This document shows, one piece after another, positions 854 through 15,243 of a stretch of 36,451 bases of DNA. The stretch is taken from positions 1-36,451 of the forward strand of contig JAFGCL010000010.1 of NCBI GenBank assembly GCA_016932645.1. The letters run 5' to 3'. The stretch's first letter is position 1. The number at the start of each line of letters is the position of its first letter. Source of the DNA: Dehalococcoidia bacterium (GTDB lineage Bacteria; Chloroflexota; Dehalococcoidia; UBA2247; RBG-13-53-26). Position numbers and translations under genes: made by a program. The notes under the pieces are model-generated. The model did not search any database, was not told the DNA's origin, and saw only the letters and a program-made list of their open reading frames with translations.

Positions 854-3800
854 TCAGGCGAAGTTCCTGACCTTGGCCACTGGCATCGTTTGAGGCAGTT
901 CCTCTTGATGATGGTGGATGGGCTGCAGATGCCCCGCTATCACATTGACCACTCCGCTGTGCTTCTGAAGTATTCCTTCCACCACGATAACCGGCTTCAG
1001 TCGGACGGTCTGGCGATATTTCTCATATACCCTTGGCCTGAGAATGACGTTGATTAGACCGTTTTCATCTTCTAACGTGACGAAAACGTGCCCCTTGGCT
1101 GTACCTGGCATCTGCCGGCAGACCACGCAGCCAGCTACCCTCACCTTGGTACCTGAAGGAATGGCTGCTATGTCAGAACTCTTGAGGACGTTTCCAGAGA
1201 CATCGGAGCGGAATACGTCCATCGGGTGGTGCGTGGCTGACAGTCCTTGGATCTGGTAATCCGCTGCCACCTCATCCTCCAGCGTCATCCGGGGCAGATT
1301 TGCTCCGGGCATCGGCAACCGGAGGGGCATGGTATCTGGGGGTTGCTTCACCAGCATCCTCATCTGCCAGAGTAGTTGCCGCCGAGGCACATGAAGATAG
1401 TCAAAGGCACCCACCAAGATAAGGTTCTCTACTGCTTCTCTATCCAGCCTGGTTCTGGTGTAGAAGTCATCCAGCGAGGTGTATAGCCCTTGGTTTCGCC
1501 CCGCTTCTATCCTCTGCCAAGCCTCCTCACCCACGGCTCTTACGTACCGGAAGCCCAGCCTTATCTTTCCTCTTTCCACAGTGCATCTGGCTCGGCTGAG
1601 GTTTATATCAACAGGCAATACTTTGATTCCCTTCTGTTTGGCGTGGTTGACGATCACCTCGGGCGCATAGAAACCCATGGGCTGACAGTTGAGCAGGGCA
1701 CAGTAGTATTCACAGGGGTAATAGAGCACGAGCCAGGCAGAACGATAGGTCGTCTCAGCCAGGGCCGCTGCATGGGCTTTGCAGAAGCCAAATTCAGCGA
1801 AGCTGGCGATCTGCTGGAAAGCAATACCGGCCACCTTCTCTTCTACGCCGTTTCTACGAGCGCCATCCATGAATCCCTCTTTCAGCTTCTCCATGGCTTC
1901 TCTGGAGCGTTTGCGGCTCATCGCCCGGCGTAGCGAGTCTGCCTGGCCTGGAGTGAAACCAGCAATGACCATAGCCACCTGTATCACCTGTTCTTGGTAG
2001 ATGATGACACCTAAAGTCTCCTTGAGCGCCGGTTCCAGGCTGGGGTGAAGGTAAGTCACCTTCTCCTTTCCCTGCCTGCGACTGAGATAGGGATGGACAG
2101 CGTTGCCCTGGATTGGTCCGGGCCTGATGATAGCCACTTCCGCTATCAAGGCCTCGAAGCAACGGGGCCGGGAGCGCGGGAGAATGGACTGTTGGGCTCC
2201 CGATTCCACTTGGAAGACACCCAATGTATCTCCCCGGCAAAGCATGTCGTAGACGCGGGGATCGTTCAACGGTATGCTGTCCAGGTTCAGGTCAATATCC
2301 CGACTTCGTCTGATCAAATCTGTAGCCTCGTGAATAAGTGAGAGCATACGCAGGCCAAGTAGGTCGATCTTGATCAGGCCAACATCGCTGATGTCATCCT
2401 TGTCCCACTGGGTCACCACCCGGCCCGGCATGGCGGCCTTCTCCAGCGGCACGATATCACTCAAAGGTGTGGTGGAAATGATCATTCCGCCCACATGGAT
2501 GCCCAGATGGCGGGGGAAATCGGCTATCTGGCGGCACATCTCCAGGAACTGCTCCCAGACTTGGGAATCCAGAGAACTCTGGAAATCAGTTAGTCCAGAC
2601 AGGCTTTCCTTTATGTTCGCTGCAGTGTAAACATCCAGTGACCGGGCCATCCGGTCCACGAGATCCGGCGGCAGGCTCATGGCCTTGCCCACTTCCCTGA
2701 CCGTGTTCCGAGCCTTGTAGGTCACCACGTTGCATAGCATGGCCGCATGCCCTGCTCCGTGCTTTTGGTAGATGTACTGGATGAGTTTCTCCCGCTGGTC
2801 TTCGCGATCGGAAGCGATGTCGATGTCTATGTCCGGTATAGCCGACATTTCATCATTGAGGAACCTGCCGGCGAACAGCCGTTGCTCTACGGGATCGACG
2901 CGGGTGACGCCCAGGACATAGGTCACGATGGAACTGGCGGCCGAGCCTCTGCCTTGAGCAGGGATGTCATTCCTCTTGGCATATTCCGTAATGTCCCAGA
3001 CCACAAGGAAATAGCCGGCCAGACCCAGCTTGTGGATTAAGCGCAGTTCGTCTTTCAGCCGCCGTTCTACTTCCTCCGTCACGGGATGGTATTTCTGGCG
3101 AACTCGCTCCCGGCAGAGCCTCTCCAGGTAGCTGTCGGCAGTCTCCCCCGGCGGCGCCGGGAAATCGGGAAAGCGATGGCTGGACAGATTCAGTTCGAGG
3201 TTACATTCATCCGCTATTTGCAGGGTGTTAGCCACTGCTTGCGGATACTCTCTGAACAACCAGGTCATCTCCTCAGCGGACTTGAGGTAGTATTCGGAGT
3301 TGGGCCGCCGCAGGTAGTGGGAGTTGTCCAAAGTAGTGCGGTTCTTGATACAGACGAGGACATCTTGCAGGCGGTGGCCTCCCCTCCGGGTATAATGCAC
3401 GTTGTTGGTGGCTACATATCCTACCCCTAGACCGGAGGCCAGACTTACTAAGTCACGGCAGAGCCATCTATCCTCGGGACAGAGGTTGTTCTGAAGTTCG
3501 ATGTAGAAGTTGGGACCAAAGATATCAAGATACCAACGGGCTGCCTTGAGGGCCTCTTCTTTCCTGTTGTTCAGGATGAGTCGGGAAACCTCGCCGTTCT
3601 TGCAGCCAGACAGACAAAAAAGCCCATCAGAATGGCTCTCCAACATGGCCAAGGCTAGAGAAGCCTGCCCCTTGCCCTGACTGAGTTGGGCCTGGCTGAT
3701 GAGGCGGCAGAGGTTGGTATAGCCTGCCATACTCTTGGCCAGCAGAGTGATATGATAACCGCCTTCGAGCGTCATCTCTGCGCCGACAACTGGCCTGATT

Positions 3801-3970
3801 CCCTGCTCTTTGGCCGCGTTGCTGAACTTCACTATGCCATACAGCCCATCATGGTCAGTCAGGGCCAGCGCAGTCATGCCCAGTTCTTTCGCCCTGGATA
3901 TCAAGTCATCAGGGTGGGAAGCCCCGTCAAGGAAGGAGAAATTGCTGTGGCAGTGGAGCTCAACGTACAT
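854..3970 (-). CDS. dnaE2: DNA polymerase III alpha subunit, error-prone DnaE2-like C-family polymerase
   Basis: N-terminal PHP domain (MYVELHCHSNFSFLDGASHPDDL...LTDHDGLYG), catalytic PDIDIDI motif, GxVFQVES-like DTLGVFQVESGAQQ, C-terminal OB fold. The ORF track starts at 4087, but the family N-terminus MYVELHCHS starts at 3970. It lies beside an ImuB-like gene. Confidence 0.93.
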   Translation of the reverse strand: MYVELHCHSNFSFLDGASHPDDLISRAKELGMTALALTDHDGLYGIVKFSNAAKEQGIRPVVGAEMTLEGGYHITLLAKSMAGYTNLCRLISQAQLSQGKGQASLALAMLESHSDGLFCLSGCKNGEVSRLILNNRKEEALKAARWYLDIFGPNFYIELQNNLCPEDRWLCRDLVSLASGLGVGYVATNNVHYTRRGGHRLQDVLVCIKNRTTLDNSHYLRRPNSEYYLKSAEEMTWLFREYPQAVANTLQIADECNLELNLSSHRFPDFPAPPGETADSYLERLCRERVRQKYHPVTEEVERRLKDELRLIHKLGLAGYFLVVWDITEYAKRNDIPAQGRGSAASSIVTYVLGVTRVDPVEQRLFAGRFLNDEMSAIPDIDIDIASDREDQREKLIQYIYQKHGAGHAAMLCNVVTYKARNTVREVGKAMSLPPDLVDRMARSLDVYTAANIKESLSGLTDFQSSLDSQVWEQFLEMCRQIADFPRHLGIHVGGMIISTTPLSDIVPLEKAAMPGRVVTQWDKDDISDVGLIKIDLLGLRMLSLIHEATDLIRRSRDIDLNLDSIPLNDPRVYDMLCRGDTLGVFQVESGAQQSILPRSRPRCFEALIAEVAIIRPGPIQGNAVHPYLSRRQGKEKVTYLHPSLEPALKETLGVIIYQEQVIQVAMVIAGFTPGQADSLRRAMSRKRSREAMEKLKEGFMDGARRNGVEEKVAGIAFQQIASFAEFGFCKAHAAALAETTYRSAWLVLYYPCEYYCALLNCQPMGFYAPEVIVNHAKQKGIKVLPVDINLSRARCTVERGKIRLGFRYVRAVGEEAWQRIEAGRNQGLYTSLDDFYTRTRLDREAVENLILVGAFDYLHVPRRQLLWQMRMLVKQPPDTMPLRLPMPGANLPRMTLEDEVAADYQIQGLSATHHPMDVFRSDVSGNVLKSSDIAAIPSGTKVRVAGCVVCRQMPGTAKGHVFVTLEDENGLINVILRPRVYEKYRQTVRLKPVIVVEGILQKHSGVVNVIAGHLQPIHHHQEELPQTMPVAKVRNFA

Positions 3971-3972
3971 GG

Positions 3973-4221
3973 TTAGTATCTCTGCCGGGACCAGTTTCCA
4001 GAGATGAGATCCTGGAACACGGTGATTACTGAACCGTTGCTCAGTTCCAGATCGAAATAGCGGCGGGATATCTCCTGCCGCCACCACTCATCATCTATGC
4101 GCCAGACATTCCTGACACGGGCCACCCGCCTCTGCCTGTTACTTAGCCAGATGGAGACAGGACTGCCGTCTCCGTCGGCTGTAACGCGGATATCTCTGGG
4201 GATGTTAAGCGGCGTGACCAT
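3973..4221 (-). CDS. Small DUF6504-like protein of ImuB/DnaE2 loci
   Basis: 82 aa, MVTPLNIPRDIRVTADGDGSPVSIWLSNRQRRVARVRNVWRIDDEWWRQEISRRYFDLELSNGSVITVF. Sits tightly between imuB-like and dnaE2 genes. The family was recalled from known DnaE2/ImuB neighbourhoods. Confidence 0.75.
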   Translation of the reverse strand: MVTPLNIPRDIRVTADGDGSPVSIWLSNRQRRVARVRNVWRIDDEWWRQEISRRYFDLELSNGSVITVFQDLISGNWSRQRY

Positions 4222-4233
4222 GATGATTGACCT

Positions 4234-5436
4234 TTATCCATCGATGCGAGCATCGGCCAAGGCAACCCGGCGCTCCGGTATGCGGGAGTCTGGGTCAAGC
4301 GTCACCACCTTCTTGAGTGAACTACGCACGAACCGATCCCCCATATCTTTCTCCAGGCGTTGCAGGGCTTCTTCCTGCTGGCTTTTCGCCTTTGAGGAGA
4401 GAAGCGTCTGTTTTCCAAATTCGCCGCCCAGCTTGGCTAAGCCGAGGTAGATTTCCGCTATTCCTTCAGGGGAAGAAAGCGGCTCCAGGTGGCGTTTCAA
4501 TATGCCGAGCATTTCCGATTGCGAATCCGAAGGTGTCTTCAGGGTTACGGTATCCAACCAAGCACTACCATCATCGGAACGGAAGCTCAGCCTTATCTGG
4601 TGGCAGACCTGGTAGCGCTTTCTCAGCAGAGGAACAAGCCTGTCCAGAGACCTGCTAAGAGCAGCCAGCAACGCGTCTAAGCTCTCCAATGTCTGCTCGA
4701 AAGACAAAGTCTCCTCCAGCACATCCGGCCTTGGTCTGGGTATGATCGGCCTTTCGTCTATCCCATTGGCCAAACGGTGTGCCATCAGCCCCTCCTGGCC
4801 AAGTTGGCTATCGAGAGCATTCACTTGCAGGTCGGCCACTTGGCCCACAGTGCGCAGTCCCAACCGCTTGAGCCAGGCTATGGACTCCGGGGCGATGGGC
4901 AGAAACTCAATGGACAGTGGTGTCAAGAAAGTCCGCTCCTGGCCGATCCTTACTATCAATGGACTGGTGACAGCCAGCGATGCGGCCACACCAGCTATAA
5001 ACCTGCTGCTGGCTATACCGATCTGAGGCCGCAGGCCAGTTGTGCGGGTCACCTCGTCGATGACCTGCCCGGCCAGACTCTCACTGGGGCCGAACAGACG
5101 TTCCGTTCCTGAGACGTCAAGAAAGATCCGGCCTGGGTCTTCTGCCTCCGCAACAGGAGTGAACTGATCCAGGATATCCAAAACCTCCTCTGAGGCCTTG
5201 GCATAACCGGCCTCGTCAATAGGGATGAAGACGGCATCGGGACAGCAGTGTGAGGCTTGCCTCAGTGTCATCCCAGGGTATACGCCCGAGGCAGCAGCCT
5301 TATGGGAGCAGTCGAATACGGCTTTGCGCTCATGAGGAAATCCGCCGATGATCAGTGCCGACTGGGCCAACCCGGGATGCCTCATCAACTCCCACTGTAT
5401 TGGCAGATGGGGAATATAAAGACAGAGAATTATCAT
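4234..5436 (-). CDS. imuB: ImuB-like Y-family DNA polymerase homologue, predicted catalytically inactive
   Basis: Y-family fold (IFLDVSGTERLFGPSESLAGQVIDEVTRTTGLRPQIGIASSRFIAGVAAS, helix-hairpin-helix LKRLGLRTVGQVADL). Lacks the N-terminal DxDxFF metal site (ILCLYIPHLPIQWE) and the S-[IL]-DE motif (replaced by AEAEDPGRIFLD). Confidence 0.88.
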   Translation of the reverse strand: MIILCLYIPHLPIQWELMRHPGLAQSALIIGGFPHERKAVFDCSHKAAASGVYPGMTLRQASHCCPDAVFIPIDEAGYAKASEEVLDILDQFTPVAEAEDPGRIFLDVSGTERLFGPSESLAGQVIDEVTRTTGLRPQIGIASSRFIAGVAASLAVTSPLIVRIGQERTFLTPLSIEFLPIAPESIAWLKRLGLRTVGQVADLQVNALDSQLGQEGLMAHRLANGIDERPIIPRPRPDVLEETLSFEQTLESLDALLAALSRSLDRLVPLLRKRYQVCHQIRLSFRSDDGSAWLDTVTLKTPSDSQSEMLGILKRHLEPLSSPEGIAEIYLGLAKLGGEFGKQTLLSSKAKSQQEEALQRLEKDMGDRFVRSSLKKVVTLDPDSRIPERRVALADARIDG

Positions 5437-5467
5437 TGTGATTCCTCTGCGGGTTAAGAGGTGGACT

Positions 5468-6100
5468 TCAGTTCGATTTCGTCAGTCTACGGATGACGCC
5501 GATGACTCTTCCCTGGATCTGCACATTTTCAGGATCGTGGTACATGGGTTTCATCTGGCTGTTGGCTGGTTGCAGCCGGACGCGGTTGCGCTCCCGGTAG
5601 ACCTTCTTCAGAGTAACCTCTTGCTCCTCCTTGAGCCATACTGCCGCCATTTCACCATCATGAACAGCGTTGGTGGCCTGCATGATAACAACGTCGCCGT
5701 CATCAATGAGAGCGTCGATCATGGATAGCCCCTGGACCTCCAGAGCAAAGACCTTGTCAGAAGCCATATCCGTCGGAATGTCCAGCATCTCCAATGGCTC
5801 CTCGTGCCAAGTATCTGACTGAGGCACGGGTATGGGCTGACCAGCGGCAATGCAGCCCAAGAGAGGGACCTTACCTGCAGTTACTGCCTTCCCGGTCAGG
5901 ACGATGCCCCTGCGGATGCCAGGGTTACGCCTAATATAGCCTTCCCTTTCCAACACCTCGAGATGACGCTGCACCAAGGCTATTGACGAGCTGTGACGAT
6001 CCTGGAGGATCTCTCTGAATGTCGGCACATATCCCTTATCCCGTGTGAGCCGGCGAATTGATTCGAGCGTTTGCAGGTACTTTAGTGGAAGGTGAGTCAT
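5468..6100 (-). CDS. lexA: LexA SOS repressor / S24 autoprotease
   Basis: Winged-HTH N-terminus (MTHLPLKYLQTLESIRRLTRDKGYVPTFREI...), Ala-Gly cleavage site CIAAGQP, Ser in VQGLSMIDALIDDGD, Lys in EVTLKKVYRE. True start at 6100 (RBS gaggag); the 6202 start is an over-extension. Confidence 0.93.
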   Translation of the reverse strand: MTHLPLKYLQTLESIRRLTRDKGYVPTFREILQDRHSSSIALVQRHLEVLEREGYIRRNPGIRRGIVLTGKAVTAGKVPLLGCIAAGQPIPVPQSDTWHEEPLEMLDIPTDMASDKVFALEVQGLSMIDALIDDGDVVIMQATNAVHDGEMAAVWLKEEQEVTLKKVYRERNRVRLQPANSQMKPMYHDPENVQIQGRVIGVIRRLTKSN

Positions 6101-6110
6101 TTTCTCCTCA

Positions 6111-6130
6111 ACAGGTACAAATGTACCTGT
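6111..6130. promoter_or_regulatory. Putative LexA operator (SOS box)
   Basis: ACAGGTACA-AA-TGTACCTGT: perfect 9-bp inverted repeat with 2-bp spacer, 11 bp upstream of the lexA ATG and between divergent lexA and SRAP genes. Confidence 0.82.
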
Positions 6131-6148
6131 CTGGGATGATTTTGTCAA
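6120..6148 (-). promoter_or_regulatory. lexA promoter, -35 TTGACA / 17 bp / -10 TACATT
   Basis: On the - strand TTGACA (6148-6143), 17-bp spacer, TACATT (6125-6120). The -10 lies inside the palindromic operator. Confidence 0.75.
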
Positions 6149-6190
6149 GCTAAGTGAGTGGTACAATGTGGCCAGGAGTACTAGCAGAAC

Positions 6191-6910
6191 ATGTGCTACC
6201 ATACCTCCCTATCCAGGAATAAGGATTACCTGGAGAAGAGATTCCAGGCAAAGTTCGAGCACCCGGATCTCTTTGAACCCATATATCACCATTCAGGCTT
6301 CTCAGCCCCTTTCCATCCCGTGATAAGCAATGAGAGCATGGAGTCCATTCGATTCTTCCAGTGGGGTCTTGTGCCTTTCTGGACGAAGGATGAGGTTGTC
6401 GCCGAGAGAATCAGGACCCAGACCATTAACGCCAAGGCCGAGACCATCCATGAGAAGCCGTCATTCCGGTCTTCCATAATGACGAAGCGGTGTCTTGTGC
6501 TGGCAGACGGTTTTTACGAGTGGCGAGAAGAAGGGAACAAGAAGTACCCCTACTATATCTCTCTGGTCAGCAATGATGCCTTCGCTTTGGCGGGGATATG
6601 GGACAGGTGGCAGAACAATAGGACAGGAGAGGTAAAAGACACCTTCTCCGTTATCACCACAAAGGCCAATCCTCTGCTGGAACGGATTCACAACACTAGG
6701 AAGAGAATGCCGGTCATACTGAGGCAGGCTGATGAAAGGGAGTGGCTGGACAAGAATCTAGATAGAGCTGCGATCGATTCCCTTCTAGAACCATACGATG
6801 CCAGTCAGATGCAGGCTCATACAGTGTCTAGGCTGATATCAGCGAAGCGGGCCAATACAAACGTTCCCGAAGTGATGCAGGAATTCAAATACGAAGGGCT
6901 TGACGTTTAG
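6191..6910 (+). CDS. SOS response-associated peptidase / SRAP (YedK/HMCES family) protein
   Basis: Catalytic Cys2 (MCYHTS), WGLVPFW, NAKAET, CLVLADGFYEW, TTKANPLLERIHN.RMPVIL. All are SRAP signature blocks. Confidence 0.93.
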   Translation: MCYHTSLSRNKDYLEKRFQAKFEHPDLFEPIYHHSGFSAPFHPVISNESMESIRFFQWGLVPFWTKDEVVAERIRTQTINAKAETIHEKPSFRSSIMTKRCLVLADGFYEWREEGNKKYPYYISLVSNDAFALAGIWDRWQNNRTGEVKDTFSVITTKANPLLERIHNTRKRMPVILRQADEREWLDKNLDRAAIDSLLEPYDASQMQAHTVSRLISAKRANTNVPEVMQEFKYEGLDV

Positions 6911-7393: not shown

Positions 7394-7894
7394 ATGAGCA
7401 CTGAGAACCAAGAGAAGGCGTCCAATGAACGCGTCCAGCGCTTGCTGCAGCTGTTCATGCAGATACTGCCAAAGCTCAGGCCTTCCGACATGGGGCCTTT
7501 TCTGAAAGGCCTGGACCGCATGCCTCCTCGATTCAGTCCTCACCTGGTGGCCGAGCCGCCAACCATGCATCGCATGGCTAGTATGCTGTACGGAGACCCC
7601 AAGCCAACAATGGGAGACCTCAGCAGGGATCTGTCGCTTCCTCCCTCTACAGTGACGCGTGTCATCAATATGCTCGAGGAACAGGGATTTGCCAAGAGAG
7701 TACCCGATGCCGAGGACGCCAGGGTGGTGAGAGTAGACCTGACGGATGTCGGACGGCGAATCCACGAGGCCATGGAGGCCCATGCAGTACAGAGCGCCCG
7801 GAGCATCCTCGAATGCCTCACGCCCGAGGAGCAAATCATACTGCTGACTCTGCTCGGCAAAGTTGCCTCGAGCTTGAATAAGGGCACGCAATGA
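7394..7894 (+). CDS. MarR-family transcriptional regulator
   Basis: Winged-HTH MGDLSRDLSLPPSTVTRVINMLEEQGFAKRVPDAEDARVVRVDLTDVGRRI. Start taken as MSTENQ at 7394; the upstream extension overlaps the promoter. Confidence 0.88.
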   Translation: MSTENQEKASNERVQRLLQLFMQILPKLRPSDMGPFLKGLDRMPPRFSPHLVAEPPTMHRMASMLYGDPKPTMGDLSRDLSLPPSTVTRVINMLEEQGFAKRVPDAEDARVVRVDLTDVGRRIHEAMEAHAVQSARSILECLTPEEQIILLTLLGKVASSLNKGTQ

Positions 7895-8084
7895 CTTCCT
7901 CGTTCTTTGCTCTTTACGATAGCTTTACCTCTGAGATGCTAAGCTTATCCTTTGATGCGTCGATAGTGACAAATCGAGGGGCAACCTAGAGGCAACAAAT
8001 GATGCAGAACGCGGGCTGTTTGTACCCAGCACTATTACCGTTATGGAAGTGTATATTGAACACCTTTTCCTACGAAGGAGGCTC

Positions 8085-9110
8085 ATGAGCGTTATTGAAG
8101 CCAAGGCTCTCACCAAGATTTACCCTGGGGATATAAAGGCAGTCGATACCATTGATTTCCATGTGAACGCCGGCGAGATATTCGCTTTTCTGGGGCCAAA
8201 CGGCGCCGGCAAGACGACCACGATCAAGATGCTAAACACGCTTCTCATGCCCACCTCCGGCACAGCCACGGTAGCCGGCTTTGATGTGGCGAAGAATTCG
8301 GCCGAAGTCCGCCGGCGTGTCGGCTACGCGGCCCAGGACGTGGGCATAGATGAGCATGCCACCGGGCGGGAGAACCTGTCGCTTTACGGCCATTTCTACC
8401 GACTGGATGGCAGAACGATCAAGGCGCGGGTGAAGGATCTGTTCGAGCTGGTCGATCTGGCTGGCTATGAGGACAAGATGGTCTCGACCTACTCCGGCGG
8501 TATGCGCAAGAGACTCGATCTGGCCATGGGGCTGATACATGAACCTCAGGTGATCTTCCTGGATGAGCCCACCACGGGACTTGATCCGCAGACCAGGGCT
8601 CACCTCTGGGAGTATATCAACAATCTGGCCAGAAGCATGGGCGTAGCCATATTCCTGACTACCCACTACATGGAGGAGGCGGACCGCCTGGCCGATCGAA
8701 TCGCCATCATCGACTTGGGCAAGATAGTGAGCCTCGGCACTTCGGGCGAACTGAAGAAATCCATAGGGGGTGATGTGGTGACGCTGACCCCTCCGGTAGA
8801 GAGGGATGAGGAACTCCGGGAGTTCATCAAGCGCACTGAGGCGGTTCTGGCGGGTCAGCCGTTTGTAGCGGAGATGAAACCCAGCGATGGGGCTCTGGCG
8901 GTCTACGTGAATGATGGCAGCTCAGCCGTACCCGATATGATGCAGATACTGAGCGGCCAGGGAATCGATGTCAAGACGATATCCATCTCACGGCCCTCTC
9001 TCGATGACGTGTTCCTCAAGTACACCGGTCGCACTATCCGCACGCAGGAGGGGACCCGGACCAACTTCGCTCAGTTGAGGCGGCAGGCTAACAGGAGGCG
9101 AAACCAATGA
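8085..9110 (+). CDS. ABC transporter ATP-binding protein (DrrA/daunorubicin-resistance-like)
   Basis: Walker A GPNGAGKTTT, signature YSGGMRKRLDLAMGL, Walker B VIFLDEPTTGLDPQ, and DrrA-type C-terminal extension. aaggagg RBS before ATG at 8085. Confidence 0.93.
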   Translation: MSVIEAKALTKIYPGDIKAVDTIDFHVNAGEIFAFLGPNGAGKTTTIKMLNTLLMPTSGTATVAGFDVAKNSAEVRRRVGYAAQDVGIDEHATGRENLSLYGHFYRLDGRTIKARVKDLFELVDLAGYEDKMVSTYSGGMRKRLDLAMGLIHEPQVIFLDEPTTGLDPQTRAHLWEYINNLARSMGVAIFLTTHYMEEADRLADRIAIIDLGKIVSLGTSGELKKSIGGDVVTLTPPVERDEELREFIKRTEAVLAGQPFVAEMKPSDGALAVYVNDGSSAVPDMMQILSGQGIDVKTISISRPSLDDVFLKYTGRTIRTQEGTRTNFAQLRRQANRRRNQ

Positions 9111-9877
9111 TGTGGGCCTTATCTGATACTTGGCAAGTCGTGCTGCGCGATGTCAGGAGTCGCATTCGCATGCCCGTGTTCATCTTCATGAACCTGTTTC
9201 AGCCTGTGCTGTGGCTGTTGCTCTTCACTCAGATATTCAAATCCCTCAGTGGCAGTGTAGCTGGAGAGGGAATCAGCTATCTCGATTTCTTTGCGCCGGG
9301 TGTGATAGTCATGACCGTGCTGTTCGGCTCGGCCTTCGCCGGCATGAGTACGCTGATGGACATGGATTCTGGTGTTCTGTCCAAGATGGTAGCCACGCCG
9401 GTTAACCGGGTCTCCATCATAACCGGCCGCGTCCTTGCTAACGTGCTGGTGGGGTTGGTTCAGGCGCTGATTGTCTTTGTAGTGGCTGCCATCATGGGCG
9501 TACGTGTGGCTACCGGTATGCCTGGGGTGCTGCTTGTGCTGTTGCTTGTCGCCTTGCTTGGAACGGGGTTCGCTGCTTTCTCCAATGGCTTGGCGCTTCT
9601 GTTCAAGCGAACCGAGACGGTGATGGCTACCACCAACCTGCTCACGATGCCGCTGATGTTCATGTCCTCCATGATGATGCCTTCTCAGGCACTTCCTGAT
9701 TGGCTGAACACAGTGAGACAGTTCAACCCGGTGGATTATGCGGTTGTGGGTGTCCGCAACCTGGTTCTTTATGGGTATGTCTGGACCGACCTTTGGAAGT
9801 CATTGCTAGTGCTTGGCGCCTTTGCGGTGGTGATGGTGGTGTTTGGCACGCTGATGTTCGGCACCCGGGCAGAGTGA
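9107..9877 (+). CDS. ABC-2 type transporter permease (DrrB-like)
   Basis: Six hydrophobic segments. LDFFAPGVIVMTVLFGSAFAGMSTLMDMDSGVLSKMVATPVNR is typical of ABC-2 permeases. Overlaps the upstream ATPase stop. Confidence 0.92.
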   Translation: MMWALSDTWQVVLRDVRSRIRMPVFIFMNLFQPVLWLLLFTQIFKSLSGSVAGEGISYLDFFAPGVIVMTVLFGSAFAGMSTLMDMDSGVLSKMVATPVNRVSIITGRVLANVLVGLVQALIVFVVAAIMGVRVATGMPGVLLVLLLVALLGTGFAAFSNGLALLFKRTETVMATTNLLTMPLMFMSSMMMPSQALPDWLNTVRQFNPVDYAVVGVRNLVLYGYVWTDLWKSLLVLGAFAVVMVVFGTLMFGTRAE

Positions 9878-10083
9878 GAAAGGGGCCAACTATGCAGGAT
9901 AGAGTGAGCAAGGCAGTCAAGAATCCAAGCTTGGGCTCTCGGGATCGAATCGATTGTTGTGGTCAACCGCCTGTCCGCTACTAGGGATCTAGGATCAAGC
10001 AAGGAGTGGGTGGAATTAAGATATGCAATTTAGAGATAGGTGCAGCAAGGCCTTGGAGGCTGGGGCTGCAGGGAGGTGAAGCA

Positions 10084-11028
10084 GTGGAATACGCCATTCG
10101 AACGGAGAATCTGAGCAAGACATACGGGAAGACCTTCAAAGCCCTGGACAGTGTCTCTCTACAGGTAAGTAGGGGCGAGGTGGTGGGATATGTCGGTCCT
10201 AACGGTGCCGGCAAGACCACTACCATCAAGATACTGACCGGCCTGATACGGCCCACGTCGGGGAGGGCCCACGTGAACGACAGAGACGTGGTCTCCAACC
10301 CGAGAGATGCCCTGCGGTCTATGGGGGCGCTGATCGAAGTGCCAGGGGTGTATGACTACCTGACGCCGCACGAGATGCTGACCTACTTCGGCCGGGTCTA
10401 CGGCATGCGCCGCGATGTGATAGACCAGAGGATTAAGGAGACGCTGGAACTGGTCAGATTGCCGGACTGGGAGCACAAGAAGACCGGGGCGTTCAGCACC
10501 GGAATGCTGCGACGCCTAGCCATAGCCAAAGCCGTCCTCCACAGGCCGGACATCCTGATCCTGGACGAGCCGGTTCTCGGCCTGGACCCGAAGGGGATCA
10601 TGGAGGTGAGGGAGATGATAAGGCAGTTCCGCAGCGAGGGCATGACAGTCTTCCTCAGTTCCCATCTCCTGAGTGAGGTGGCCGAGGTCTGCGATTCGGT
10701 GATCTTCCTGGACAAAGGGAAAGTGGTCACGTCAGACTCTGTGGAAGGTATAGGCCGCAGAGTGGGGCATGCTGTGGTGGACGCAAGGTTCCTCCATCCG
10801 CTATCCCCCGAAGAAATCGGCAAGCTCAAAGACATTGATTTGATAAAGGGCGTTGACATGAAGAATAGTACGGCTCGACTACAGTACGATGGAACGCCAG
10901 AGACAAGTGCTCAGATACTGAGACTCCTCGTGTCTCTGAACTTGGACGTCGTGTCCTATGCGGCCGAAGGTGTCGGGCTGGAAGAATACTATGTCTCCGT
11001 CATGAGCGATGAGAAGGGGGTCAACTAA
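10084..11028 (+). CDS. ABC transporter ATP-binding protein (second module)
   Basis: Walker A GPNGAGKTTT, FSTGMLRRLAIAKAVLHRPDILILDEPVLGLDP. Likely GTG start at 10084 (VEYAIRTENLSKTYG) after ggagg. The ORF track starts at 10006. Confidence 0.92.
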   Translation: MEYAIRTENLSKTYGKTFKALDSVSLQVSRGEVVGYVGPNGAGKTTTIKILTGLIRPTSGRAHVNDRDVVSNPRDALRSMGALIEVPGVYDYLTPHEMLTYFGRVYGMRRDVIDQRIKETLELVRLPDWEHKKTGAFSTGMLRRLAIAKAVLHRPDILILDEPVLGLDPKGIMEVREMIRQFRSEGMTVFLSSHLLSEVAEVCDSVIFLDKGKVVTSDSVEGIGRRVGHAVVDARFLHPLSPEEIGKLKDIDLIKGVDMKNSTARLQYDGTPETSAQILRLLVSLNLDVVSYAAEGVGLEEYYVSVMSDEKGVN

Positions 11029-11847
11029 ATGGCAATAGACGCAGTGAGGATGAGGAACGACCTCTCTGAAAGCTGGCTTTCGCTCCGGTTCGAGATGCTG
11101 AAACATCTGAAGCGCCGCAGGCTCTTCATCGTGGGCGCACTGGCGATAGTGGTGCCGCTGTTCTTCTATGTCTACTTCTACCAGGCAGACCCGAATGCCG
11201 CAGTGGACTTTGCCAACATGTCGCTCCAGTTCATGAACGTCCTGATCGTGATATCGGCTGCCATGTTTGCCGGCGACGCTGTGTGTGGCGAATTCGAGAA
11301 AAAGACTAGCCTGCTGATCTTCCCAACTCCACAGAGAAGATCCTCCATATTTGTTGGCAAGTACGCGGCAGCAGTGATGGCAACCTTCCTGGTGGTTTCA
11401 CTCTACTATGTGGTGCTGACTCTCCAGATAGGACAGCTCTTCGGCTGGGGAGAAATACCAGGGGCACTGGGCAAATCCTTCCTGACGGCCTTGATCTACT
11501 CTGTCGCCGCGGTAAGCGTGGCATTCCTCATAAGCAGCCTATTGAAGCGCTCAATGTCTGCCACCATTGTCAGTTTTCTGGCGCTCTTGATGATATTGCC
11601 CATCGTACAAATGCTCATATCCGTACTGGATCAGGAACCCTGGTTCATCGTCACCTACTCCAGTGGTCTGATCACCAGCGTGCTCGGCGCGTCGAGCAGT
11701 CTCCCGATGAATCCCGGCGGCGGTACCAGTGGCAACGAGATCCAGCAGTTCACTCCTACTCTGAAGACGGGCATCGCCGTGATGGTGACCTGGGCCATTG
11801 CCTGCTTGGCAGCTGGCATGGCGATAGCCGTCAAGAAGGAGGACTAG
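11029..11847 (+). CDS. ABC-2 type permease (second module)
   Basis: Directly follows the ATPase (2 nt after its stop). Multiple hydrophobic helices; GDAVCGEFEKKTSLLIFPTPQRRSSIFVGKYAA typical of ABC-2 permeases. Confidence 0.88.
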   Translation: MAIDAVRMRNDLSESWLSLRFEMLKHLKRRRLFIVGALAIVVPLFFYVYFYQADPNAAVDFANMSLQFMNVLIVISAAMFAGDAVCGEFEKKTSLLIFPTPQRRSSIFVGKYAAAVMATFLVVSLYYVVLTLQIGQLFGWGEIPGALGKSFLTALIYSVAAVSVAFLISSLLKRSMSATIVSFLALLMILPIVQMLISVLDQEPWFIVTYSSGLITSVLGASSSLPMNPGGGTSGNEIQQFTPTLKTGIAVMVTWAIACLAAGMAIAVKKED

Positions 11848-12537: not shown

Positions 12538-15243
12538 TTGATTACAAAGCTGCATGTTCCTCCCGTCCCCCCGGGGTGGCTCACGCGCCCCCGCCTCAGG
12601 AAACACCTCGACGCCGCGCTGCGTTGCCGGTTGACGCTGGTTTGCGCGCCCGCCGGGTTTGGCAAGACCACGCTACTGAGCGAGTGGATCGCTCTTCAAG
12701 CGGGCGGAAGCGCCATGCATGCCCCACCTGCTGCATGGCTTTCCGTGGACAAGGAAGATAATGATCCGGATCGCTTCTGGACCTACTTTGTGGCCGCACT
12801 GCAAACCGTGCAGTCGGGTCTGGGACAACGTTCACTGGAGATGCTGGAGACGGGCAAAGCGCCCTCTATCAGGGCTGTGTTGACCACTTTGGTGAATGAC
12901 ATCAGCGAGGCCAAGCGTGACTTCGTGCTGATACTGGATGACTACCACGAGATAGCATCGAAGTCGGTCCACGAGTCTATCGCCTTCCTCGTGGACCATC
13001 TGCCGCCGCGGGCGCATTTGGTGCTGGCGAGCAGGGTTGATCCGCCGCTCCCACTGGCCCGTCTGCGAGTTCGTGGGCAGTTGAATGAGCTGCGGGCCGC
13101 TGACCTGCGTTTTACGACGGACGAAGCGACCGCCTTTTTCAATGACATCATGAACCTGGGACTGACGACTGACAACGTTAGGGCGCTCGACTCTCTGACA
13201 GAAGGCTGGATAGCCAGCATCCGAATGGCCGCGCTATCCATGCAGGGATGCGAGAATATCCCTAGCTTCATCGCGGAGTTCACGGGCACCCACCGCCATG
13301 TGATGGACTATCTGGTGGAGGAGGTGCTTGGCCGTCAGAGACCTAGCGTGCAGCAGTTTCTGGTGCGAACCTCCGTTCTTGATCGTTTGAGCGCGTCGCT
13401 GTGCAATGCCGTGACCGGTGGGGACAATGCAGAAGAGATGCTCGATCATCTGCAATCGGCCAATCTATTCGTGGTGCCGTTGGACGAGAGCCGGAAGTGG
13501 TTCAGGTACCACCATTTATTCTCTGACCTGTTGCGCGATCGCCTGCAGAAGACGCAGCCTGACCGTATACCAATGCTGCAACGCCGGGCCAGCCAATGGT
13601 TTGAGAGAGAGGGTTTGACTTCCGAAGCCATTCAATATTCTCTCGCAGCCAAGGACCTTGACCGCGCTGCAGACCTGATCGAGTCAGTGGCCGTGCCGCT
13701 CATATCACAGGGCAAGATTTCGGCGCCGCAGGGATGGCTGGAGAAGTTGCCCGAGGAAGTCATCCTGTCGCGCCCGTGGCTCTGCATCGGCCTGGCCAAT
13801 GTCCGGGAGGCACGCGGCCAGCTTGTTGCTGTTCAGCCACTAGTGGATGCAGTGGAGGCCATCCTCTCCCGGGCCCGGCCTGCCAGGACGCCCAGAGAGG
13901 CGGAGTCAGACAGGCGCATCCGCAACCATTTGACGTCTCTGCGCATACCGCTGTTTCTGGCCCGGGGTGAAACCGACGAGGCCATCCGCCTCTGTCATGA
14001 GGCGATTGAGCAGTCAGCCGACGACCAGCCAACGGTGCGATGCATGTCGGTGCTCCTTCTGGGGTTGGCGCATTGGATGAAGGGGGACATGTCCAGTGCC
14101 GTGCCCTATCTGGAAGAGGCAGCGGTTTACGGACAGACCACGGGTAATTACTTCATCACACTGGTTGCCATGGGACACCTGGCAGACATCTATGTCAGAC
14201 AGGGGCGGCTGCACGAGGCAGCCGAGGCCAGCCGCAAGGCTATCCGCCTCGGCACGGAATGGGGAGGTGGAGAACCCCTTCCCGCTACCAGCTACGCCCA
14301 TATATGCCTGGCTCAGATTCTCTACCAATGGAATGAGATTGAAGAGGCCATACACTATGTCAACCGGGCGATTGATTTGGGCAGGCAAGGGGTGCAGTTG
14401 ACCATTGCCGTGATGGCGGTTCCGGGGCTAGCGCCCCTGACGGAGCTGATCGGACAGACCACTGCACTGTCCGATGCCTTGGATGAACTGGAGGGTGTGG
14501 CTAGGGCATCGCGGAGCACTGTGATGACCAGGGTGACCGCTTCGTGGCGCGCCCGTTTATCTCTGGCCAGGGGCGATATCGGCCAGGCTCTGCAGTGGGC
14601 GGCCTCCAGGGAGAGATCCAAAGGTGGTTGGGATGAGGGGCTCGAGTTCGCACTGGAATTCGAGTATCTCACACTGGCCCGGCTCAAGATCGCCAGGGGG
14701 CAACTACAGGGCGTTCCGGCCATGCTGGATCAGGTGCGGAAAAGGGCTGAGGCAGAGGGCAGGATGGGTAGCGTCCTTGAGATACTGGTCCTGCTGTCCA
14801 CCACGCTTCGTGCTCAAGGCAGGGCCGATGAGGCCATGCAGACGCTGCAGAGGGCCCTCTCGCTGGCGGAGCCCGAGGGATATGTCCGCATCTTCGTGGA
14901 TGCGGGGGAGCCGATGGCCGAGCTCCTGCGGTCTGCGCTGCAAGAGCGGATCATGCCAGAATACGTGTCGGGCCTGCTGGCGTCGTTTGGCACGGCCACC
15001 GGTCGCGATGGATCGACCGGCATCACCGCACCACGTGTGAAGCCAATGTCGGAGCCGATCACCAAGCGTGAGCTGGAGGTGCTCAAGCTGCTGGCTGCCG
15101 GTGCATCCAACCAACAGATCGCCGAGGAGTTGGTGCTGGTGACGGGAACAGTAAAGGCTCACCTGCTGAACATCTACCGCAAACTCGACGTTCATAGCCG
15201 CACACAGGCAGTGGCCCGGGCGCGGGAACTTCGCCTCCTGTGA
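12538..15243 (+). CDS. LuxR-family transcriptional regulator, MalT/LAL type (STAND ATPase - TPR - LuxR HTH)
   Basis: Walker A CAPAGFGKTTLLSEW, LILDDYHEI, TPR-rich middle, C-terminal LuxR HTH PITKRELEVLKLLAAGASNQQIAEELVLVTGTVKAHLLNIYRKLDVHSRTQAV. TTG start. Confidence 0.92.
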   Translation: MITKLHVPPVPPGWLTRPRLRKHLDAALRCRLTLVCAPAGFGKTTLLSEWIALQAGGSAMHAPPAAWLSVDKEDNDPDRFWTYFVAALQTVQSGLGQRSLEMLETGKAPSIRAVLTTLVNDISEAKRDFVLILDDYHEIASKSVHESIAFLVDHLPPRAHLVLASRVDPPLPLARLRVRGQLNELRAADLRFTTDEATAFFNDIMNLGLTTDNVRALDSLTEGWIASIRMAALSMQGCENIPSFIAEFTGTHRHVMDYLVEEVLGRQRPSVQQFLVRTSVLDRLSASLCNAVTGGDNAEEMLDHLQSANLFVVPLDESRKWFRYHHLFSDLLRDRLQKTQPDRIPMLQRRASQWFEREGLTSEAIQYSLAAKDLDRAADLIESVAVPLISQGKISAPQGWLEKLPEEVILSRPWLCIGLANVREARGQLVAVQPLVDAVEAILSRARPARTPREAESDRRIRNHLTSLRIPLFLARGETDEAIRLCHEAIEQSADDQPTVRCMSVLLLGLAHWMKGDMSSAVPYLEEAAVYGQTTGNYFITLVAMGHLADIYVRQGRLHEAAEASRKAIRLGTEWGGGEPLPATSYAHICLAQILYQWNEIEEAIHYVNRAIDLGRQGVQLTIAVMAVPGLAPLTELIGQTTALSDALDELEGVARASRSTVMTRVTASWRARLSLARGDIGQALQWAASRERSKGGWDEGLEFALEFEYLTLARLKIARGQLQGVPAMLDQVRKRAEAEGRMGSVLEILVLLSTTLRAQGRADEAMQTLQRALSLAEPEGYVRIFVDAGEPMAELLRSALQERIMPEYVSGLLASFGTATGRDGSTGITAPRVKPMSEPITKRELEVLKLLAAGASNQQIAEELVLVTGTVKAHLLNIYRKLDVHSRTQAVARARELRLL

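Follow-up and report, generated by a model that had tools for sequence, protein, structure and literature searches.

A predicted LexA-controlled, imuA-less mutasome operon of the Deinococcus type in a Dehalococcoidia genome

Introduction

Cassettes in which lexA, imuY, imuB-C and dnaE2 follow one another are known from at least 20 Deinococcus species, and in Deinococcus deserti induction is RecA-dependent and UV mutagenesis depends on imuY and dnaE2 (PMC8072749). More broadly, operons without imuA that combine an inactive Y-family polymerase, a standalone ImuB-C and DnaE2 have been described, with RecA proposed in the place of ImuA (PMC6511836, PMC12926913), and operon linkage between SRAP genes and mutasomes has also been published (PMC3765255). 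The present study examined 36,451 nucleotides (nt) of a Dehalococcoidia bacterium (contig JAFGCL010000010.1, assembly GCA_016932645.1; the whole stretch is referred to as the window), in which lexA, an inactive Y-family polymerase (iPolY), a gene for a protein of 82 amino acids (aa) and dnaE2 are accompanied by a divergent SRAP gene. An initial annotation had regarded this arrangement as unusual, a view that the literature does not support, as the same four-gene order is on record for many Deinococcus species (PMC8072749) and has been classed among the known variants (PMC6511836, PMC12926913). The locus is a well-formed further example of the system known from Deinococcus and not a new system. 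We consider it very likely to be an SOS mutasome operon that represses itself and belongs to the known lexA-imuY(iPolY)-imuB-C-dnaE2 type, with LexA repression, RecA docking on iPolY, an ImuB-C bridge, lesion bypass by DnaE2 and SRAP as an accessory.

Results and discussion

Gene order and operon layout

Open reading frames (ORFs) and profile searches confirmed the five genes initially annotated, including their order and orientation. The minus-strand order is lexA, iPolY, the 82-aa gene and dnaE2, with intergenic gaps of 31, 12 and 2 bp across the four-gene operon and all reading frames intact, and SRAP is divergent on the plus strand. The features of the locus are:

854..3970, minus strand: dnaE2, error-prone C-family polymerase, 1038 aa (NF004225, 1136 bits, cut-off 939)
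3973..4221, minus strand: standalone ImuB-C domain (DUF6504 family), 82 aa, all-beta (PF20114 via the family)
4234..5436, minus strand: iPolY, an ImuB-like (ImuY-type) inactive Y-family polymerase, 400 aa (IMS, 6e-27)
5468..6100, minus strand: lexA, SOS repressor, 210 aa (Pfam Peptidase_S24, 1.2e-24; LexA_DNA_bind, 1e-9; TIGR00498 above cut-off)
6111..6130, core 6115-6126, no strand: predicted LexA operator ACAGGTACAAATGTACCTGT (pattern count, family conservation)
6120..6148, minus strand: predicted lexA operon promoter TTGACA-17-TACATT (promoter scan; -10 within the operator)
6159..6167, plus strand: probable SRAP promoter element TGGTACAAT, an extended -10 (by inspection)
6191..6910, plus strand: SRAP/YedK-type gene, 239 aa (PF02586, 1.6e-58)

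The lexA start was assigned to ATG 6100, with GAGGAG ahead of it, and not to 6202, because in the longer ORF the LexA DNA-binding profile does not open before residue 43 and the LexA proteins of relatives align from 6100. The two divergent genes therefore do not overlap and are separated by 90 bp (6101-6190); a head-to-head lexA/SRAP overlap was rejected as an artefact of the wrong lexA start codon. DnaE2 most likely starts at 3970 (MYVELHCH...), 2 bp past the stop of the 82-aa ORF, and not at GTG 4087.

Absence of ImuA and the split ImuB

The reading of the locus as an imuA-less mutagenesis operon under LexA gained support, since a predicted operator is present and imuA is missing from the genome and from the relatives searched. 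No RecA/ImuA-like gene lies within the window, as initially noted, and RecA-family matches in the source genome comprised recA (contig C79) and a weak match (contig C46), the latter rejected as an ImuA candidate because it is RadA by sequence. RecA-family, ImuA-protein and ImuA-model searches of the source genome and 80 relatives returned only RecA, RadA-like proteins or noise, with one RecA above the PF00154 cut-off in each of 15 genomes checked. The ImuA model, NF033429, is a narrow equivalog whose cut-off was reached by no control genome, Caulobacter included, so the sole ground of its negative result is that it matches RecA itself (below cut-off) and nothing better in the genomes.

The 82-aa protein had been placed in the ImuA position, an assignment that did not hold: it is a separate ImuB C-terminal domain situated between iPolY and dnaE2, and in sister families it is fused to iPolY. 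Its initial description as DUF6504-like proved correct at the family level, as 13 of 24 aligned class orthologues match DUF6504 (PF20114; best 1.3e-8); the window ORF alone has no Pfam match even at E = 10, and an NCBIfam search was likewise uninformative. The D. deserti ImuB-C carries the public annotation DUF6504 and also matches PF20114, and the class ImuB-C profile finds this protein at 4e-8 and gives a weak match (0.006) to the C-terminus of Cupriavidus ImuB. An AlphaFold model of the 82-aa protein consists entirely of strands (predicted local distance difference test, pLDDT, 82). A PDB fold search with ImuB-C gave nothing better than E 0.7, the fold having been stated as new and without a PDB relative (PMC12926913), and a phage search gave no match.

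In G020 (two copies), G078, G033, G066 and a named Chloroflexi metagenome-assembled genome (MAG; L078), the iPolY ORF carries the ImuB-C domain at its C-terminus, so that fused forms come from two families of Dehalococcoidia plus one further Chloroflexi MAG. Each is a single ORF:

L054:8400-9887, minus strand: fused iPolY-ImuB-C
L057:4242-5696, plus strand: fused iPolY-ImuB-C
L058:8481-9935, minus strand: fused iPolY-ImuB-C
L061:8638-10092, minus strand: fused iPolY-ImuB-C
L062:8190-9746, minus strand: fused iPolY-ImuB-C
L078:952-2364, plus strand: fused iPolY-ImuB-C

By its sequence, the 82-aa protein is thus half of a split ImuB and not an ImuA substitute, because it belongs to the DUF6504/ImuB-C family and is naturally fused to the iPolY C-terminus in other families. 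It is the only small extra gene of the imuA-less operon, which could suggest that it functionally replaces ImuA instead of being a piece of ImuB; we regard this as highly improbable, as the modelled protein is all-beta and not RecA-like, and its gene does not lie upstream of imuB, where imuA sits. The four class genomes with fused iPolY that were searched each had one RecA and no ImuA was found, nor was an ImuA-like gene apparent beside the fused cassettes in an ORF sketch. No description of a fused iPolY-ImuB-C without ImuA was found in the open-access literature, and it is possible that such fusions are evolutionary intermediates between split and canonical ImuB. G020 contains two closely similar complete fused cassettes with SRAP, located on different contigs (L057 and L058).

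The inactive Y-family polymerase and DnaE2

Alignment with an active Deinococcus Pol IV (a Deinococcus aetherius match, used as the active-site reference and for nothing else) indicates that all three catalytic carboxylates of iPolY are replaced, the metal-binding Asp by Tyr and the Asp-Glu pair by Gly-Arg. Its AlphaFold model (pLDDT 88) has the Y-family fold, with Foldseek matches to DinB/Dpo4 at E about 1e-27. The C-terminal tail aligns with the N-termini of RecA proteins in the register expected, comprising a helix ending ..RFG followed by a strand (hhalign score 23.9, compared with a maximum of 19.4 in 40 shuffles), and the model places this helix at 348-368 and the strand at 375-379. We therefore assign a RecA N-terminal (RecA-NT) motif to the iPolY C-terminus with moderate confidence. 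Because iPolY has lost its catalytic acids yet retains a motif resembling the RecA N-terminus, RecA probably fills the role of ImuA. A plasmid search with iPolY gave only distant Y-family matches (<60% identity).

The contigs of relatives were scanned with DnaE2, the iPolY alignment having no sufficiently conserved stretch. The catalytic PDIDID and KID motifs of DnaE2 were seen by inspection, and a separate DnaE, 37% identical to it, is encoded on contig C55 of the source genome. In a DnaE2 tree the window sequence clusters with its own family (100/100), and the fused families f11 and f24 form one clade (100/100) nested among split ones. The split/fused label changes three times in all on this tree; one of these changes is that of the distant Cupriavidus ImuB, which is not placed with certainty. 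Within Chloroflexota the simplest reading of the tree is that fusion arose from a split ancestor.

An inactive polymerase next to a second DnaE, without ImuA, might also represent a decaying or non-functional remnant, and the missing catalytic residues and weakened clamp motif of iPolY would fit such decay. This explanation has very little probability in our assessment: the frames are intact, gene order is retained in orthologues 59-80% identical, the family shares one invariant operator core, and ImuB/ImuY proteins are as a rule catalytically inactive (PMC6511836).

LexA and its predicted operator

A single LexA was found in the source genome, and its A-G cleavage site (IAAGQP), catalytic Ser (GLSM) and Lys (TLKK) were all seen by inspection. 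The lexA-SRAP intergenic region contains a near-perfect palindrome, ACAGGTACAaaTGTACCTGT, at 6111-6130, covering the -10 of the minus-strand lexA promoter TTGACA-17-TACATT, which was the only promoter detected by a scan of the region. The operator pattern ACAGGTACANNTGTACCTGT has one match in the window compared with 0.02 expected from shuffles. Its exact 12-mer core, GTACATTTGTAC, occurs once per genome in G000 (the source genome), G001, G002, G003 and G006, always adjoining lexA; it is kept upstream of lexA in these five and in G009, and the combination of TTGACA and GTACATTTGTAC was read directly at lexA in G000, G001, G002, G003 and G009. The flanks vary in matching pairs among family members (GGGGTAC..GTACCCC, TAGTAC..GTACTA and CAGGTAC..GTACCTG). 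A search of the source genome allowing one mismatch in the operator found no excess over a control pattern.

Most other class members checked have GAACnnnnGTTC boxes close upstream of the cassette. Such boxes lie at about -20 to -80 of iPolY in L043, L044, L046, L049, L050, L054, L056, L057, L058, L060-L064, L078, L093 and L094. Two loci of family f21 (L040 and L042) have mixed GTACnnnnGTTC half-sites, which suggest operator drift.

A LexA-like box ahead of recA was found neither in the source genome nor in the other family genomes checked (G001, G003, G004, G005 and G006), and three other class members (G013, G020 and G078) have one. The recA loci without a LexA-like box include L067 (G000), L100, L101, L104 and L105. 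These patterns suggest that recA is possibly no longer controlled by LexA in this family and that LexA here serves mainly its own operon. A further-reaching scenario, which we offer only tentatively, is that the family LexA has become a dedicated repressor with its only strong operator at the mutasome operon that encodes it, after losing control over recA and the remainder of the classical SOS regulon; the operator would have shifted from the class GAACnnnnGTTC to GTACATTTGTAC, and SRAP would have been placed recently on the far side of the operator and recruited in the source species. If true, one detectable LexA operator per genome would constitute a minimal SOS circuit, with mutagenesis as the only response served by damage induction. 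No description of a LexA with an apparently single operator was found in the open-access literature. Two details are apparently new: a LexA that seems dedicated to a single operon and, in sister families, a fused iPolY-ImuB-C without ImuA.

SRAP and the shared-operator question

The SRAP identity of the divergent gene was upheld by its PF02586 match (1.6e-58), and its active-site Cys2, Asn, Glu and His were seen by inspection. The initial annotation had coupled SRAP to the translesion polymerases at one shared operator. The general linkage stands, as it recurs in G020, G078 and G070; the shared operator is not supported, given that the five-gene order is unique to the source genome and not conserved even within the genus, that the palindrome covers the lexA -10 and sits about 50 bp ahead of where SRAP transcription is inferred to start, and that a congeneric SRAP has no LexA box. 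Other genes than SRAP lie upstream of lexA in G001, G002, G003 and G009, and the lexA-SRAP adjacency occurs only in the source genome among those compared. The SRAP of the congener G002 (172/241 aligned positions identical) is encoded on another contig without a LexA box, and the same GGTACAATGTRGCCAGG precedes SRAP in both genomes (L068 in the congener), suggesting that SRAP arrived together with its promoter. No standard SRAP promoter overlapping the operator was found, and the extended -10 TGGTACAAT was not called by the promoter scan. SRAP is possibly a neighbour outside the regulated unit.

SRAP lies directly downstream of dnaE2 in G020 (twice) and G078 and upstream of iPolY in G070, which makes a functional link plausible. 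These independent linkages beside the mutasome are:

L057:8894-9589: SRAP gene
L058:4587-5282: SRAP gene
L061:4744-5454: SRAP gene
L049:8234-8911: SRAP gene

Under a stronger form of this link, SRAP and the mutasome would make up one five-gene damage-tolerance module co-regulated from one operator, with SRAP shielding abasic sites at the fork and DnaE2 bypassing other lesions. The 90 bp between the divergent start codons, the two further arrangements that place SRAP next to the iPolY-ImuB-C-DnaE2 cassette in three more genomes of Dehalococcoidia, and the published linkage (PMC3765255) are compatible with such a module. We nevertheless judge it rather unlikely, in view of the promoter evidence above, the confinement of the lexA-SRAP pair to the source genome, and the presence of SRAP beside the cassette in 0/21 named loci.

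Proposed mechanism

From the operon anatomy we infer that the four genes are controlled by LexA and induced by DNA damage. LexA would bind the palindrome over its own promoter and shut off the whole operon; upon DNA damage, RecA filaments would trigger LexA self-cleavage and the operon would be transcribed, as the D. deserti precedent suggests. iPolY, presumably unable to polymerise, would serve as a scaffold whose C-terminal motif docks RecA instead of the missing ImuA. By analogy with published modelling of related complexes, the separate ImuB-C beta-barrel would bridge iPolY and the DnaE2 PHP domain, with DnaE2 performing the error-prone lesion bypass. SRAP would be an accessory neighbour, probably protecting abasic sites and expressed mostly from its own promoter. 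The gene content, the operator, the inactivated active site, the homology to ImuB-C, the conservation and the lack of ImuA in the genomes searched are computational results; LexA repression, damage induction, RecA docking, complex formation, mutagenic function and any role of SRAP are predictions.

Several observations weigh against this interpretation. The source genome is 72.8% complete, and the absence of imuA therefore rests largely on the relatives; the RecA-NT match spans no more than 23 columns (probability 51%); iPolY proteins of the source family have a degenerate clamp-binding motif (GKQTLLSS in the window), with QxSLF in many class members; and the D. deserti proteins are very divergent (iPolY about 22% identical), their DnaE2 sitting on a long branch of the tree.

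The findings extend the imuA-less, split-ImuB mutasome to the large uncultured class Dehalococcoidia and support the view that RecA can replace ImuA. Split and fused iPolY-ImuB-C occur in one class, without ImuA, which makes the proposed path (split, then fused ImuB, then ImuA recruitment) testable by comparing intermediates.

Elsewhere on the plus strand, the cassette is adjoined by an ordinary export-like block at 7394-11847, comprising a MarR-type regulator and then two ABC-2 type transporter gene pairs, and a MalT/LuxR-type ATPase-TPR regulator of 901 aa (TPR_MalT, GerE) is encoded at 12538-15243.

Comparison with known systems

The iPolY - ImuB-C - DnaE2 core is present in many families of Dehalococcoidia, in many Chloroflexota, and in Gemmatimonadota and Actinomycetota that bear names, and its operon usually lacks lexA; among the loci compared, only the source family and D. 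deserti have lexA within it. Chloroflexi and Dehalococcoidia are unnamed in the main text of the mutasome survey PMC12926913. The canonical imuA-imuB-dnaE2 cassette of Caulobacter, Mycobacterium and Pseudomonas brings together DnaE2, an inactive Y-family scaffold and ImuB-C under LexA, as predicted for the window operon, which differs in having no ImuA and two separate genes for the parts of ImuB. The published SRAP/YedK/HMCES genes that neighbour SOS polymerase operons (PMC3765255) resemble the window in that SRAP adjoins ImuB-C/DnaE2 genes, but the window SRAP is divergent from lexA, an arrangement of the source genome only. Another similar system is the putative DnaE2X-iPolY-ImuB-C-RecA mutasome (PMC12926913; Kyrpidia tusciae operon, PMC6511836), which shares the inactive PolY with a RecA-NT motif, the standalone ImuB-C, DnaE2 and the lack of ImuA; this likeness is one of gene content and motif, and the window operon differs in being headed by lexA, with iPolY and ImuB-C fused in some sister families.

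The Deinococcus lexA-imuY-imuB-C-dnaE2 cassette has the same four genes in the same order, with LexA in the operon, an inactive Y polymerase, an 80-82-aa DUF6504/ImuB-C protein and no imuA. The window differs from it in its Chloroflexota host, the GTACATTTGTAC operator, the divergent SRAP and the HCH motif retained at the start of the DnaE2 PHP domain, which D. deserti DnaE2 has lost. In gene order and in every computationally testable feature, the window agrees with the Deinococcus-type cassette.

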